From Planctomycetota bacterium (GTDB lineage Bacteria > Planctomycetota > Planctomycetia > Pirellulales > Pirellulaceae): a stretch of DNA of 12,505 bases. The notes beneath the pieces are model-generated. The model searched no databases. It had not been told where the DNA came from and saw nothing but the letters and a program-made list of their open reading frames with translations. The stretch is taken from NCBI GenBank assembly GCA_019347795.1, contig JAHWKS010000055.1, positions 1 through 12,505 of the forward strand. The letters are read 5' to 3'. Numbering within the stretch: position 1 is the stretch's first letter; each line of letters begins with the position of its first letter. Made by a program: the position numbers and the translations under genes. Of the stretch, positions 617 to 7,917 are shown one piece after another.

Positions 617-1657
617 ATGGATCCTGAATCTTCTTCCACGTCGCGGCGGTCGCCGTGGCGGTGGTTTTGGCGGACGCTTCTGGCGTGCAGTGTGGTGACG
701 GCGATTGCGCTGTTCGCGGCGTGGTGGGTGATGGTGCGGATGCCCGGCAAGAGCTTTCGCGGCGAGGCCCCGCCGCTGGACGACGACGCGGCCGAGCTGC
801 GCGATCGGCTGCGGCGCCATGTGGAGCGGCTGGCCGGGGAGATCGGCGAGCGGAACCTGCAGCGGTATCCGCAGCTTCAAGAAGCCGCCGCGTACATCGC
901 CGAGGAGCTGGAGGACGCGGGATACGAGGTTTCCCGGCAGACCTTCACGGCCCGCGATCATGAGTTTGTGAACCTCGAAGCGGAGTTGCGGGGGGCATCG
1001 CGGCCGGAGGAGATCGTGATCGTCGGCGCCCATTACGACACGGTTCCCGGCTCGCCCGGCGCGGGGGATAACGCCAGCGGCGTGGCGGCGATGCTCTCCC
1101 TCGCCCGGCGTGCAAAGGGTTGGAAGCCGGCCCGGACGGTGCGGTTCGTGGCCTTCTCCAATGAGGAGATGCCGTACTTCCAGTCGTCCGACATGGGCTC
1201 CTGGGTCTACGCCCGCCGCTGCCGCAAGCGGGATGAGAACATCGTGGCGATGCTGAGCCTGGAGACGATCGGCTACTTCCGCGACGAGCCGGGCAGCCAG
1301 CAGTATCCGCCCCCGTTCGGCGCGTTCTATCCGAGCGAAGGGAACTTCATCGGCGTAATCGGCAATGTCGCCTCGCGGCCGCTGGTGCATCGGGTGATCG
1401 AGAGCTTCCGCCGCCGTGCGAGCATTCCCTCCGAAGGCGGGGCGATTCCGGCCGACGTCGCCGGCGTCGGCTGGTCCGATCACTGGTCGTTCTGGCAGGA
1501 AGGTTACCCGGCCGTGATGATCACCGACACCGCGATCTTCCGCTATCCCCACTACCACCGCCCCACCGACACGCCCGACAAGCTCGACTACGAAAAGACG
1601 GCCCGCGTGGTGGAAGGCGTCGAAGCAGCCGTGCGGGAGTTAGCGGGAGCGGAGTGA
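617..1657 (+). CDS. M28-family zinc metallopeptidase, membrane-anchored
   Basis: A 346-residue protein. Residues about 17-40 form a single hydrophobic segment after an Arg/Trp-rich N-terminus, consistent with an uncleaved anchor that places the enzyme outside the cytoplasm. The catalytic domain has the M28 pattern: H139 in AHYDT, D151 in GAGDNASG (bridging metal), E183/E184 in FSNEE (general base plus ligand), E216 in LETIGY, and a late H in YHRPTDT (about residue 314). All expected metal-ligand positions are filled, so it should be an active di-zinc aminopeptidase or carboxypeptidase. The exact substrate cannot be read from sequence; family members cleave peptides or N-terminal glutamine. 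The ATG at 617 lacks an SD but gives the best N-terminus for the anchor. It converges with a small lipoprotein gene 32 nt beyond its stop. Confidence 0.9.
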   Translation: MDPESSSTSRRSPWRWFWRTLLACSVVTAIALFAAWWVMVRMPGKSFRGEAPPLDDDAAELRDRLRRHVERLAGEIGERNLQRYPQLQEAAAYIAEELEDAGYEVSRQTFTARDHEFVNLEAELRGASRPEEIVIVGAHYDTVPGSPGAGDNASGVAAMLSLARRAKGWKPARTVRFVAFSNEEMPYFQSSDMGSWVYARRCRKRDENIVAMLSLETIGYFRDEPGSQQYPPPFGAFYPSEGNFIGVIGNVASRPLVHRVIESFRRRASIPSEGGAIPADVAGVGWSDHWSFWQEGYPAVMITDTAIFRYPHYHRPTDTPDKLDYEKTARVVEGVEAAVRELAGAE

Positions 1658-5489: not shown

Positions 5490-6212
5490 GTGAAGTTCAA
5501 CCGACTCGGTTTCGGCGCAATCGTCCTGCTCACACTGACAATTGGTGGATGCTTCTACGTCGGTTCAATTGTCGTTCGCAGTCTCGATCCGTTCCCGGTG
5601 CTCGAATTCGTAGACAAGTCCGGTCCTTCAGCCTCCCGCAAGATGTACTCGTGGGACTTCACGATTGATCCTTCTGCGGTTCGACGAGTCTCCATGAAAT
5701 CTGCGTCTAGCATCGATTCATATTCGACCTGGTCGAAGTTTGAACTATCGCCATCGGACGCCGAAACGCTTTCGTCTGAACTGCACAAAAGAATGGCTGC
5801 GATCGACGACTATCTGCAACGTACAAAAGAATGCGAACAGGCGACCCGGACGATCACGTCAATCCCAATTCGTGCTCCCACGTCTGAAACGCCTGACTGG
5901 TGGGCGGCACCAACAGGGACGGGTAATGCCACCGAAAACATGCTCTGGTACCTGGATGCGACGTATGGTGTCGCACAAGGCTGCTATACTATCTACGATT
6001 CCCAAACTGAAACACTTTGGGTGTACAAATACGCGGCACAACATGACTCACACTGGGAACGCGGGGCACGGCCTCCGTATGCCTATCGTCCACCACCGAC
6101 ACCCCGGAATCGTGACACGGGTCAGAACGGGGTCAGAACGATTTCTTACGTGCCACCGCGGGCGGAGAGGTCTGCATGCCGGAGCGAGTCTACATCGAAA
6201 CGACTTTCGTGA
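5490..6212 (+). CDS. hypothetical lipoprotein with probably altered C-terminus
   Basis: The start is a GTG without a clear SD, but it yields a good lipoprotein signal peptide: MKFNRLGFGA, a hydrophobic run, and TIGGC with Cys21. No known domain is recognised. A conserved-looking segment rich in Trp/Tyr and Asp (SETPDWWAAP, TENMLWYLDA, CYTIYDSQTETLWVYKY) suggests a genuine secreted domain up to about residue 200. From about residue 208 the frame runs through the tandem gggtcagaacg repeat at 6119-6140 and then overlaps the PIN gene by 37 nt in another frame. The last 30 or so residues (RDTGQNGVRT onward) are therefore probably not native. Base composition is visibly AT-richer than in flanking genes, a sign of recent acquisition. 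Confidence 0.6.
   Translation: MKFNRLGFGAIVLLTLTIGGCFYVGSIVVRSLDPFPVLEFVDKSGPSASRKMYSWDFTIDPSAVRRVSMKSASSIDSYSTWSKFELSPSDAETLSSELHKRMAAIDDYLQRTKECEQATRTITSIPIRAPTSETPDWWAAPTGTGNATENMLWYLDATYGVAQGCYTIYDSQTETLWVYKYAAQHDSHWERGARPPYAYRPPPTPRNRDTGQNGVRTISYVPPRAERSACRSESTSKRLS
6119..6140. repeat. 11-bp perfect tandem duplication (gggtcagaacg x2)
   Basis: Two perfect abutting copies at 6119-6129 and 6130-6140. Translated on the plus strand in the lipoprotein frame they give TGQNGVRT, a peptide I recall at the ends of many planctomycete hypothetical proteins. This suggests a dispersed repeat. It lies 35 nt before the PIN-domain gene and probably marks an insertion or recombination junction. Confidence 0.6.
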
Positions 6213-6655
6213 GCTACTTGACAGCGCGACCCAGCCGCGACGTGGTGATCGCCGGTCACCAGCAGACCACTCACGAATGGTGGGATACGCGACGAGAGAG
6301 CTACGAACTTTGCGTCTCCCAGCTGGTCCTGGGGGAGGCGGGCGCCGGTGATCCGCAAGCCGCTCAAGAGCGGCTTGCGGTCTTGAACGCCATGCCCCTT
6401 CTGGAAACAAGGCGTGAAGCCGTGGCGCTAGCGAAAGAACTGATCCAGGCAGGCGCGCTGCCGGCAAAAGCTGCAGACGATGCGCTGCATATTGCCATCG
6501 CAGCCACAAACGGAGTATCCTACTTATTGACGTGGAACTGCCGCCATCTAGCGAATGCCGCGATGCGGCCCATGATCGAATCGGTCTGCGCGGCCGAGGG
6601 CCTCAAGGCCCCGATCATCTGTACGCCCGAGGAACTCTTGGAGGCAAAGCCATGA
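6176..6655 (+). CDS. PIN-domain (VapC-like) putative toxin
   Basis: A 159-residue PIN-domain protein; family members are Mg2+-dependent ribonucleases. Acidic positions are visible: E8 in VYIETT (the usual first Asp is Glu, as in one VapC-like subgroup), E54 in LVLGEAGAGD, D101/D102 in ADDALHIAIA, and the final strand LLTWNCRHLANA, where the last acidic site is Asn121. GAGAGG is 5 nt before the ATG. The stop overlaps the start of the next gene by four bases (ATGA), so the pair should be translated together. This makes it the toxin of a toxin-first TA module. The 37-nt overlap with the upstream lipoprotein frame suggests that the upstream gene, not this one, was altered. The RNA target is unknown. 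Confidence 0.85.
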   Translation: MPERVYIETTFVSYLTARPSRDVVIAGHQQTTHEWWDTRRESYELCVSQLVLGEAGAGDPQAAQERLAVLNAMPLLETRREAVALAKELIQAGALPAKAADDALHIAIAATNGVSYLLTWNCRHLANAAMRPMIESVCAAEGLKAPIICTPEELLEAKP

Positions 6656-6858
6656 ACGATCCGATTGTCGATGAAGTTCGGCAAGTACGCGATGCCCACG
6701 CTGCGCGCTTCAATTACGACTTGGACGCGATCTTTCGAGACATCAAAGAGCAAGAGAAGATGAGCGGACGTAATTTCGTCTCCTTTCCGCCGCGTAATGT
6801 AGAGCCGAACCAGGCGCTGCAGCCGACCGAATCCGCCATTCCGGATTCTCAAGGTTGA
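6652..6858 (+). CDS. putative antitoxin of the PIN toxin, 68 residues
   Basis: The ATG at 6652 overlaps the toxin's TGA (ATGA), fixing the start; a longer reading from 6532 lies inside the toxin gene and is a shadow. Residues 1-48 (MNDPIVDEVRQVRDAHAARF, then NYDLDAIFRDIKEQEK and FVSFPPR) match a small protein type that I recall following PIN genes in cyanobacteria and planctomycetes. It is predicted to be mostly helical and acidic, as expected for an antitoxin. It has no obvious DNA-binding motif. Residues 52-68 (PNQALQPT to the end) are encoded within the attC-like site and are probably not part of the functional fold. The antitoxin role is inferred from context and resemblance. Confidence 0.68.
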   Translation: MNDPIVDEVRQVRDAHAARFNYDLDAIFRDIKEQEKMSGRNFVSFPPRNVEPNQALQPTESAIPDSQG

Positions 6859-6903
6859 AAGTCGCCTTAAGGCGGCCCCCTCGGCTGAGTTTTAACGTTG
6901 GGC
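6804..6903 (+). other. integron attC-like recombination site
   Basis: The 100-bp segment has the attC layout. The left box GCCGAAC (6804-6810) and right box GTTGGGC (6897-6903, fitting GTTRRRY) are inverted copies with 6/7 matches. Inside them, GCAGCCGA (6819-6826) pairs with TCGGCTG (6881-6887). The two spacers between outer and inner boxes are of near equal length (8-9 nt). The middle holds further inverted repeats: GAATCCG against CGGATTC near 6829-6848, and GCCTTAAGGC at 6864-6873. The left box deviates from RYYYAAC at its fourth base. No integrase gene or second site was seen in the window. Confidence 0.6.
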
Positions 6904-6996: not shown

Positions 6997-7917
6997 TCAT
7001 GGGAAGCCGCGCCGCCGCCCGGCGCGGGACTTTTCGATCTCGGTTACGATGTGTCCGTTGCGGAAGACGGTGACGGTTCCGGTGGACTCGCTGACGCTGA
7101 CGGCGATTGCCTCGGTGGCCGCGGTAATCCCGGCGGCGGCGTGATGGCGGGCGCCCCACCCACGCGGCAGGGGGTCAGCTTCTTCATCCTGCGGCGTGGT
7201 CTGGAGATAGGCGCCGCAGGTCGCCAGCACGCCTTCTCCGGAGATGATGAACGCTCCGTCAATCGTCGAGAGCTCCTTCACGGTCTCCTCCAGGTTCGGG
7301 TCGAGCACGTTGCGGACTTCCTCAGAATAGCCGTGGAACGGGTTGAGGATCAGTTGTCGCGACAGCGTGACGACGCGCTGGGAGTCGCCGATCACAAACA
7401 GGGCGCCGACCGGCTTCCCCTCGCGACCCTCGCTTCCAAGCGCCGCGGCAATGCCGATCACCCGCTCCACAACTTCGGGAAGCAGGCCCTTGGGAAGGCT
7501 TTCCTCGCCTGGCTGGGAAGCGAACATCTCGGTCTCCGCCCCCACCTCAGTGATAATCAGCGTATCCAGCGCTCCGCTGGCGGGGAGTCCGGTGAGGCAG
7601 GCGGCGATGTCCCCCCGCCGGACGAGCTTTCGCGACAGCGCCAGAAACACGGCGATCTTCACCTGCCCCATCCGCGAAAGCGCCACGTTGGGGACGCGCA
7701 GGAACCGCGCGCCGCGCTCCTCCAGCTCGCGTTGCTCGGCCTGCGTCTTGGCGATGTAGATCACCTTCTCGCGAAGCTCCGCCGGCAGCGGCAGTTGCTC
7801 TCCCGCGAGCGCGTCGGCGTAAACGAAGATCGCCGCGGCGCCGCTGGACTCCACGACGGCCTTCAGGTTCTCCACCAGCGCGCGACAGATGCGTCGCGAT
7901 GTCGTCTCTTCGTGCAC
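6997..7917 (-). CDS. dacZ: diadenylate cyclase, DacZ-like (N-terminal pyruvate-kinase-like domain plus DAC domain)
   Basis: A 306-residue protein starting at GTG (7917), with GGGGAG 6 nt upstream. Residues about 10-135 resemble the C-terminal alpha/beta domain of pyruvate kinase (IFVYADAL, then VALSRMGQVKIAVFLALSR, then GALDTLIITEVG). Residues about 150-292 form a DAC (DisA_N) domain with the DGA motif (DGAFIISGEGVL, residue 220) and RHHAAAGITAATEAIAVSVSE (RHH at 257-259) followed by TGTVTVFRNG. DAC enzymes condense two ATP into cyclic di-AMP, a messenger for potassium and osmotic control. The same domain pair is known in archaeal DacZ, and I recall it in planctomycetes. The usual RHR reads RHH here. 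No DNA-binding HhH region of DisA and no membrane helices of CdaA are present, so it is a soluble cytoplasmic enzyme. Confidence 0.85.
   Translation of the reverse strand: MHEETTSRRICRALVENLKAVVESSGAAAIFVYADALAGEQLPLPAELREKVIYIAKTQAEQRELEERGARFLRVPNVALSRMGQVKIAVFLALSRKLVRRGDIAACLTGLPASGALDTLIITEVGAETEMFASQPGEESLPKGLLPEVVERVIGIAAALGSEGREGKPVGALFVIGDSQRVVTLSRQLILNPFHGYSEEVRNVLDPNLEETVKELSTIDGAFIISGEGVLATCGAYLQTTPQDEEADPLPRGWGARHHAAAGITAATEAIAVSVSESTGTVTVFRNGHIVTEIEKSRAGRRRGFP

Follow-up and report, generated by a model that had tools for sequence, protein, structure and literature searches.

The segment at positions 6804 to 6903 of the window (the whole stretch of DNA that was analysed, 12.5 kb) is confirmed by covariance searches as a genuine integron attC. 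The reading that best fits its sequence and surroundings, to which we give a probability of about 0.88, is that it is a bona fide attC site forming the 3' end of a VapC-like/antitoxin cassette that is stranded alone in the chromosome. Recombination at this site is inferred. The contig carries no integrase, yet the genome to which it belongs is not integrase-less.

Identification of the attC site

Comparison sites were collected by a pattern scan of species genomes in which the L'' side and the R' core were fixed and R'' was left free. The scan found 12 loci, which by their titles are nine planctomycete, one named only "bacterium," one Acidobacteria, and one Gammaproteobacteria; those in Aquisphaera insulae, Lacipirellula limnantheis, Fimbriiglobus, and others we take to be planctomycetes. 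With nine such titles among 12, the planctomycete origin that the earlier note assumed is plausible for the window. The window and 11 of the 12 loci were aligned (L022 is cut at a contig end and was omitted), and the 11 sites from other genomes, with the window not included, were used to build covariance model R1. Apart from the attC, R1 found a single weak match in the window (753 to 827, minus strand, 15.8 bits, E 0.35). The training set of a second model, R2, comprised 41 matches, including one antisense duplicate, from nine intI-bearing loci, none of them in the window's genome; these sites were chosen with R1, and the structure of R2 is therefore inherited from R1. With filters off, the R2 runner-up in the window reached 10.1 bits (E 0.52), 34 bits below the attC, and no second attC was found in the 12.5 kb. 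The earlier note had placed the site at exactly these coordinates from the letters alone, and both models bear this out (Table 1).

Table 1. Features of the attC locus (all coordinates refer to the window)
Feature	Position	Strand	Basis
attC recombination site, single	6804..6903	+	R2 44.6 bits, E 4.7e-10; R1 57.5 bits
R'' box GCCGAAC	6804..6810	+	Sequence; present in 11/12 aligned sites, window included
L'' arm, with extrahelical G6819; second extrahelical base A6826 just outside	6817..6825	+	Alignment, RNAalifold consensus
L' arm	6882..6889	+	Pairing with L'' (alignment, RNAalifold consensus)
R' box GTTGGGC; expected exchange point G6897/T6898	6897..6903	+	Sequence; exchange point from PMC8876359 (in part)
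VapC-like PIN-domain protein, 159 aa, probable toxin	6176..6655	+	Pfam PIN E 9.6e-4, 20.2 bits, below the 23.6 cut-off
Probable antitoxin, 68 aa	6652..6858	+	Relative at E<=0.01 in 26/30 vapC-like loci, own included

The site reads as R'', a 6-base spacer, L'' with its extrahelical bases, a long and variable section that contains inner palindromes, L', a spacer, and R'. In the RNAalifold prediction for the 12 aligned sites both extrahelical columns are unpaired in the L stem, and the outer R stem is absent. R' follows the GTTRRRY consensus (PMC8876359, in part), so that GTTGGGC can be regarded, as it had been from the start, as a proper right-hand core. In alignment A6 of the R2 matches, which was fitted to the structure and is therefore biased in its favor, 94.9% of cells pair, compared to 29 to 44% when the alignment is slid, and changes on both sides occur in 16 of 21 pairs, against a shuffled mean of 12.8. 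The bottom-strand folding that had been proposed as a check was not decisive: the bottom strand gave a z of -1.63 (12 of 200 shuffles were equally good) and the top strand -0.88, the minimum-energy fold differs from that of an attC, and folding energy alone does not single out the site. An Rfam scan of the window gave no family at its gathering score. We also considered a high-copy repeat. A search of the window's own genome for near-exact L'' patterns returned the window copy, which is exact, and two places with three mismatches, and the repeat was therefore rejected.

The mismatch between the outer boxes

The window's R'' is complementary to its own R' at six of seven bases, position 4 being the exception, and this had been seen as leaving room for doubt. 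In an integrated array, however, the last six bases of a site derive from the next cassette, as a consequence of the exchange point. A mismatch between R'' and its own R' is thus expected, because the R' of an integrated cassette belongs to the right-hand neighbor. The exchange takes place between the first and second bases of the core (PMC8876359, in part). The effect could be followed in a set of 237 matches, reduced to 228 by removal of 9 overlapping ones; weak matches were kept (E up to 1), including the window's own 753 to 827 minus-strand match, as were 30 R1 matches from L016, L017, L018, L020, L022, L025, and L026, down to E 0.0012, with the cut-off L022 match excluded. Full complementarity between the outer four bases of R'' and the R' of the preceding site was seen in 117 of 153 neighbors, and in 87 of 123 when the two loci with near-uniform boxes (L118 and L119) are left out, whereas shuffling within loci gave a mean of 41 and a maximum of 54 for these 123. 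Full complementarity to the site's own R' was seen in 67 of 197 sites (39 of 164 without the near-uniform loci). Where the two R' boxes differ and a pair is thus informative (86 pairs), the preceding R' was favored 70 times and the own R' 10 times, with 6 ties. Judged by these sequences, GCCGAAC together with GTTGGGC is a normal chimera of integrated cassettes, and the doubt falls away on the contrast between 87/123 and 39/164.

If GCCGAAC is the R'' of the window's own cassette, the predicted left end of that cassette is GTTCGGC. G at position 4 of R'' occurs in 48 of 197 sites, and its counterpart, C at position 4 of R' (GTTC...), in 38 of 197 (for example L141, L142, L147, L152, and L154); the latter form lies outside GTTRRRY. 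As a separate observation, the longest preceding ORF ends deeper in the attC in 17 of 47 cases where position 4 of R'' is G, compared to 9 of 82 where it is T, and at sites with T the preceding ORF stops within R'' in 35 of 82 cases; in this comparison the window is counted by its longer toxin ORF.

The toxin-antitoxin pair

The two genes preceding the site probably form a toxin-antitoxin pair, composed of a VapC-like toxin and a small partner as judged by domain and homology searches; neither protein has an NCBIfam match. The antitoxin ORF ends inside the attC, and its C terminus from EPNQALQPT on is attC encoded. Relatives of the VapC-like protein at E<=1e-20 are present in 28 of 294 genomes of the phylum, own genome included, and 30 of 49 vapC-like matches were examined as loci. 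Seven of these 30, namely L161 (the window's own locus), L163, L164, L167, L169, L173, and L189, have an attC in the same orientation (R2, E<=0.01) no more than about 300 bases from the pair. The statement that the site directly follows a toxin-antitoxin pair stands for a probable pair; apart from the window's own locus, relatives of the pair adjoin attCs in 6 of 29. Two of these six, L164 and L189, belong to genome G315 and have an attC on each side of the pair; at L164 the 3' attC and the next site are complementary in their boxes, and the two sites around the pair are not. No attC was seen near the pair at the other 23 of the 30 loci, and it is therefore not cassette-borne in every case. 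The toxin of L162 (a locus spanning 1.5 kb either side of its gene) is 84% identical to that of the window, and the DNA homology covers window positions 6175 to 6888, from the vapC start to the L' arm of the attC. R2 found no attC at the corresponding place in L162, and in both L162 and L163 the attC region is degraded.

The left end and the flanks

In the 4.8 kb that lie 5' of the toxin gene we found no GTTCGGC, the left core that would complement R''. On the plus strand of the window this motif occurs at 1315, 6676, and 11987, and only the first of these is 5' of the toxin gene. The copy at 6676, the only one within 1.5 kb (0.17 expected), was rejected as a cassette start, as it lies inside the antitoxin gene and the homology to L162 and L163 continues through it. 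By way of control, 106 of 132 comparison sites have a complementary left core no more than 1.5 kb upstream, where 13.4 are expected by chance. An intact gene cassette, with a left core 5' of the toxin complementary to its own R'', was not found in the window. The left end of the cassette appears, from the motif searches, to be lost, and it is on the missing core within 4.8 kb that we read the locus as a stranded single cassette. Downstream of the attC, no GCCCAAC was found within 1.5 kb.

A tandem 11-base repeat, GGGTCAGAACG, is present at 6119 to 6140, just before the VapC-like gene. Among 205 loci, exact matches to it were found only in the five that overlap the window, and the repeat may mark the lost left junction. 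On the other side, positions 6997 to 7917 hold a DacZ-like diadenylate cyclase gene (DAC 74.8 bits, DacZ_P 34.6 bits; best NCBIfam match DacZ at 133.6 bits, below its cut-off), for which no relatives at E<=1e-40 were found in 39 related genomes.

Further out, the attC locus appears to be flanked on both sides by housekeeping-type genes. The best match of FliM outside its own genome, among 40 relatives, is in the same-genus genome G199 (74%). ProA is 84% identical in G199, the better of two ProA matches in the stretches of four relatives. Because of these same-genus matches the contig fits its bin. A search of the four stretches for an empty site recovered only FliM, ProA, and one weak partial match (27%) of a PQQ protein; FliM and ProA are conserved in the same genus and the toxin-antitoxin neighborhood was not found there, hence no empty site is shown.

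Integrases and attC sites in the same genome and in the phylum

The window is an entire contig (C336) of a genome that is 72% complete and split into 976 contigs. There is no intI at the attC locus, and none of the genome's eight intI-model matches is on this contig, so that the absence of an integrase claimed in the earlier note holds for the contig and fails for the genome. Contig C921 encodes an intact-looking intI (TIGR02249, 466.6 bits, cut-off 265), whose best solved relative by sequence is IntI4, 2a3v (311 of 345 residues). Only some 200 bases separate the gene from the end of the contig, and a search of C921 at E<=0.3 gave no attC. Contig C588 has a truncated intI (L011, 470 to 1285) that covers model positions 8 to 212 of 315, lacks the C-terminal part, and shares 66% identity with the C921 protein across 209 residues; the end of the truncated ORF is overlapped by an attC on that strand. 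On the examined contigs of this genome R2 found 13 attCs at E<=0.001, five on C972, two each on C883 and C619, and one each on C42, C57 (a partial match), C588, and the window. Weak R1 matches were also seen on C338 (E 0.098) and C837 (E 0.995). In the five-site array of C972 only one of four neighboring pairs has fully complementary boxes, and by this measure the array looks decayed. The copy count leaves the site alone on its contig but one of 13 on the examined contigs, with two intI loci elsewhere, and the proposal of an attC cluster lacking an integrase is incomplete in view of the intact-looking intI, the truncated one, and the attC arrays on other contigs.

Integrons are also found in related genomes. 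G199 has an intI and five attCs in divergent arrangement on one contig (C104), and intI is present at E<=1e-60 in 12 of 40 relatives, own genome included. In a phylum sample of 199 genomes, R1 matches and intI were each found in 32, and both in 14 (Fisher p 3e-5, uncorrected for kinship); at the same thresholds, 18 of the 32 genomes with R1 matches have no intI, and 18 of the 32 with intI have no R1 match. The R1 scan scored 20 candidates per genome under strict filters, and its counts are lower bounds. The Lacipirellula limnantheis chromosome combines an array with intI, an attC cluster some 240 kb away from it, and four single matches apart from both, a mix similar to that of the window's genome. 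These four singles (L143 to L146) score 79.8, 77.9, 39.0, and 37.8 bits, and for one of them, L143, the complementary left core is present 548 bases upstream (0.12 expected).

Comparison with known systems

Integrons and attCs of Planctomycetes have been published (PMC8352920 and PMC2426708, both in part), as has an attC covariance model for this group (PMC8352920, in part). The window site shares with the attCs of sedentary chromosomal integrons of Planctomycetota the R''-L''-L'-R' layout, the extrahelical bases, and the GTT core. It differs from them in the G at position 4 of R'' and the incomplete pairing with its own R', and whereas the arrays elsewhere in the phylum, the same-genus genome included, adjoin intI, the window copy stands alone. 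Because no intI lies next to the site, the locus is not a complete integron, and with one attC in 12.5 kb it falls short of a CALIN of at least two attCs, the default reporting threshold of IntegronFinder. It is of a known kind, a single-attC CALIN, which likewise has an attC without a nearby integrase. Toxin-antitoxin pairs rank with the most frequent cargo of cassettes (PMC8618304 and PMC9668308, in part); compared to such cassettes, the window pair has the VapC-like gene first and no left cassette end was found.

Origin of the lone site

Both off-target insertion and array decay are described as routes to integrase-less attCs (PMC8618304, in part). A circular cassette with the pair and the attC would have been inserted off target by an IntI acting in trans, or, by the alternative route, the cassette would be the survivor of an array that decayed around it. 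The latter, a branch of our best explanation, supposes a longer cassette array at this locus whose other cassettes and attCs were eroded or deleted, and we regard it as a tentative but real possibility, somewhat short of even odds. The decayed look of C972 in the same genome speaks for it; R' GTTGGGC could derive from a lost downstream cassette, and the left core is absent 5' of vapC. Against it are the lack of a second attC in the window by R2 with filters off, the absence of GCCCAAC within 1.5 kb downstream, and the housekeeping-type genes that appear to lie on both sides.

It is far less probable that the site belongs to a dispersed family of attC-derived repeats moved by an agent other than IntI. 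Single matches elsewhere, such as the four in L. limnantheis, would fit such a family, but the genome has only one exact L'' copy and two places with three mismatches, and the same type of site builds arrays beside intI with the box complementarity of cassettes. Least credible of all is a chance palindrome, a terminator, or another hairpin resembling an attC: the folding energy is indeed unremarkable on both strands, but a model made from sites of other genomes finds the site at an E value of 4.7e-10, and the boxes and extrahelical positions are conserved. For the stranded cassette, the left end would have been lost after either route, and the cassette is probably frozen as a unit. With the left core missing, precise excision as one unit is unlikely; the folded bottom strand could still serve as an IntI substrate.

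A broader generalization is doubtful, namely, that in integrons of the phylum (probably Planctomycetota) the core is extended (GTTC in addition to GTTA/GTTG) and single cassettes are regularly scattered over the chromosome, so that lone attCs, some encoding C-terminal tails, would form a standing, re-mobilizable gene pool. For the present locus, what looked like an odd lone site is a regular integron part whose box mismatch follows from cassette chemistry, and an integrase missing from one contig of a metagenome-assembled genome is uninformative about the genome. The site would exemplify a cassette that either departed from its array or survived it.
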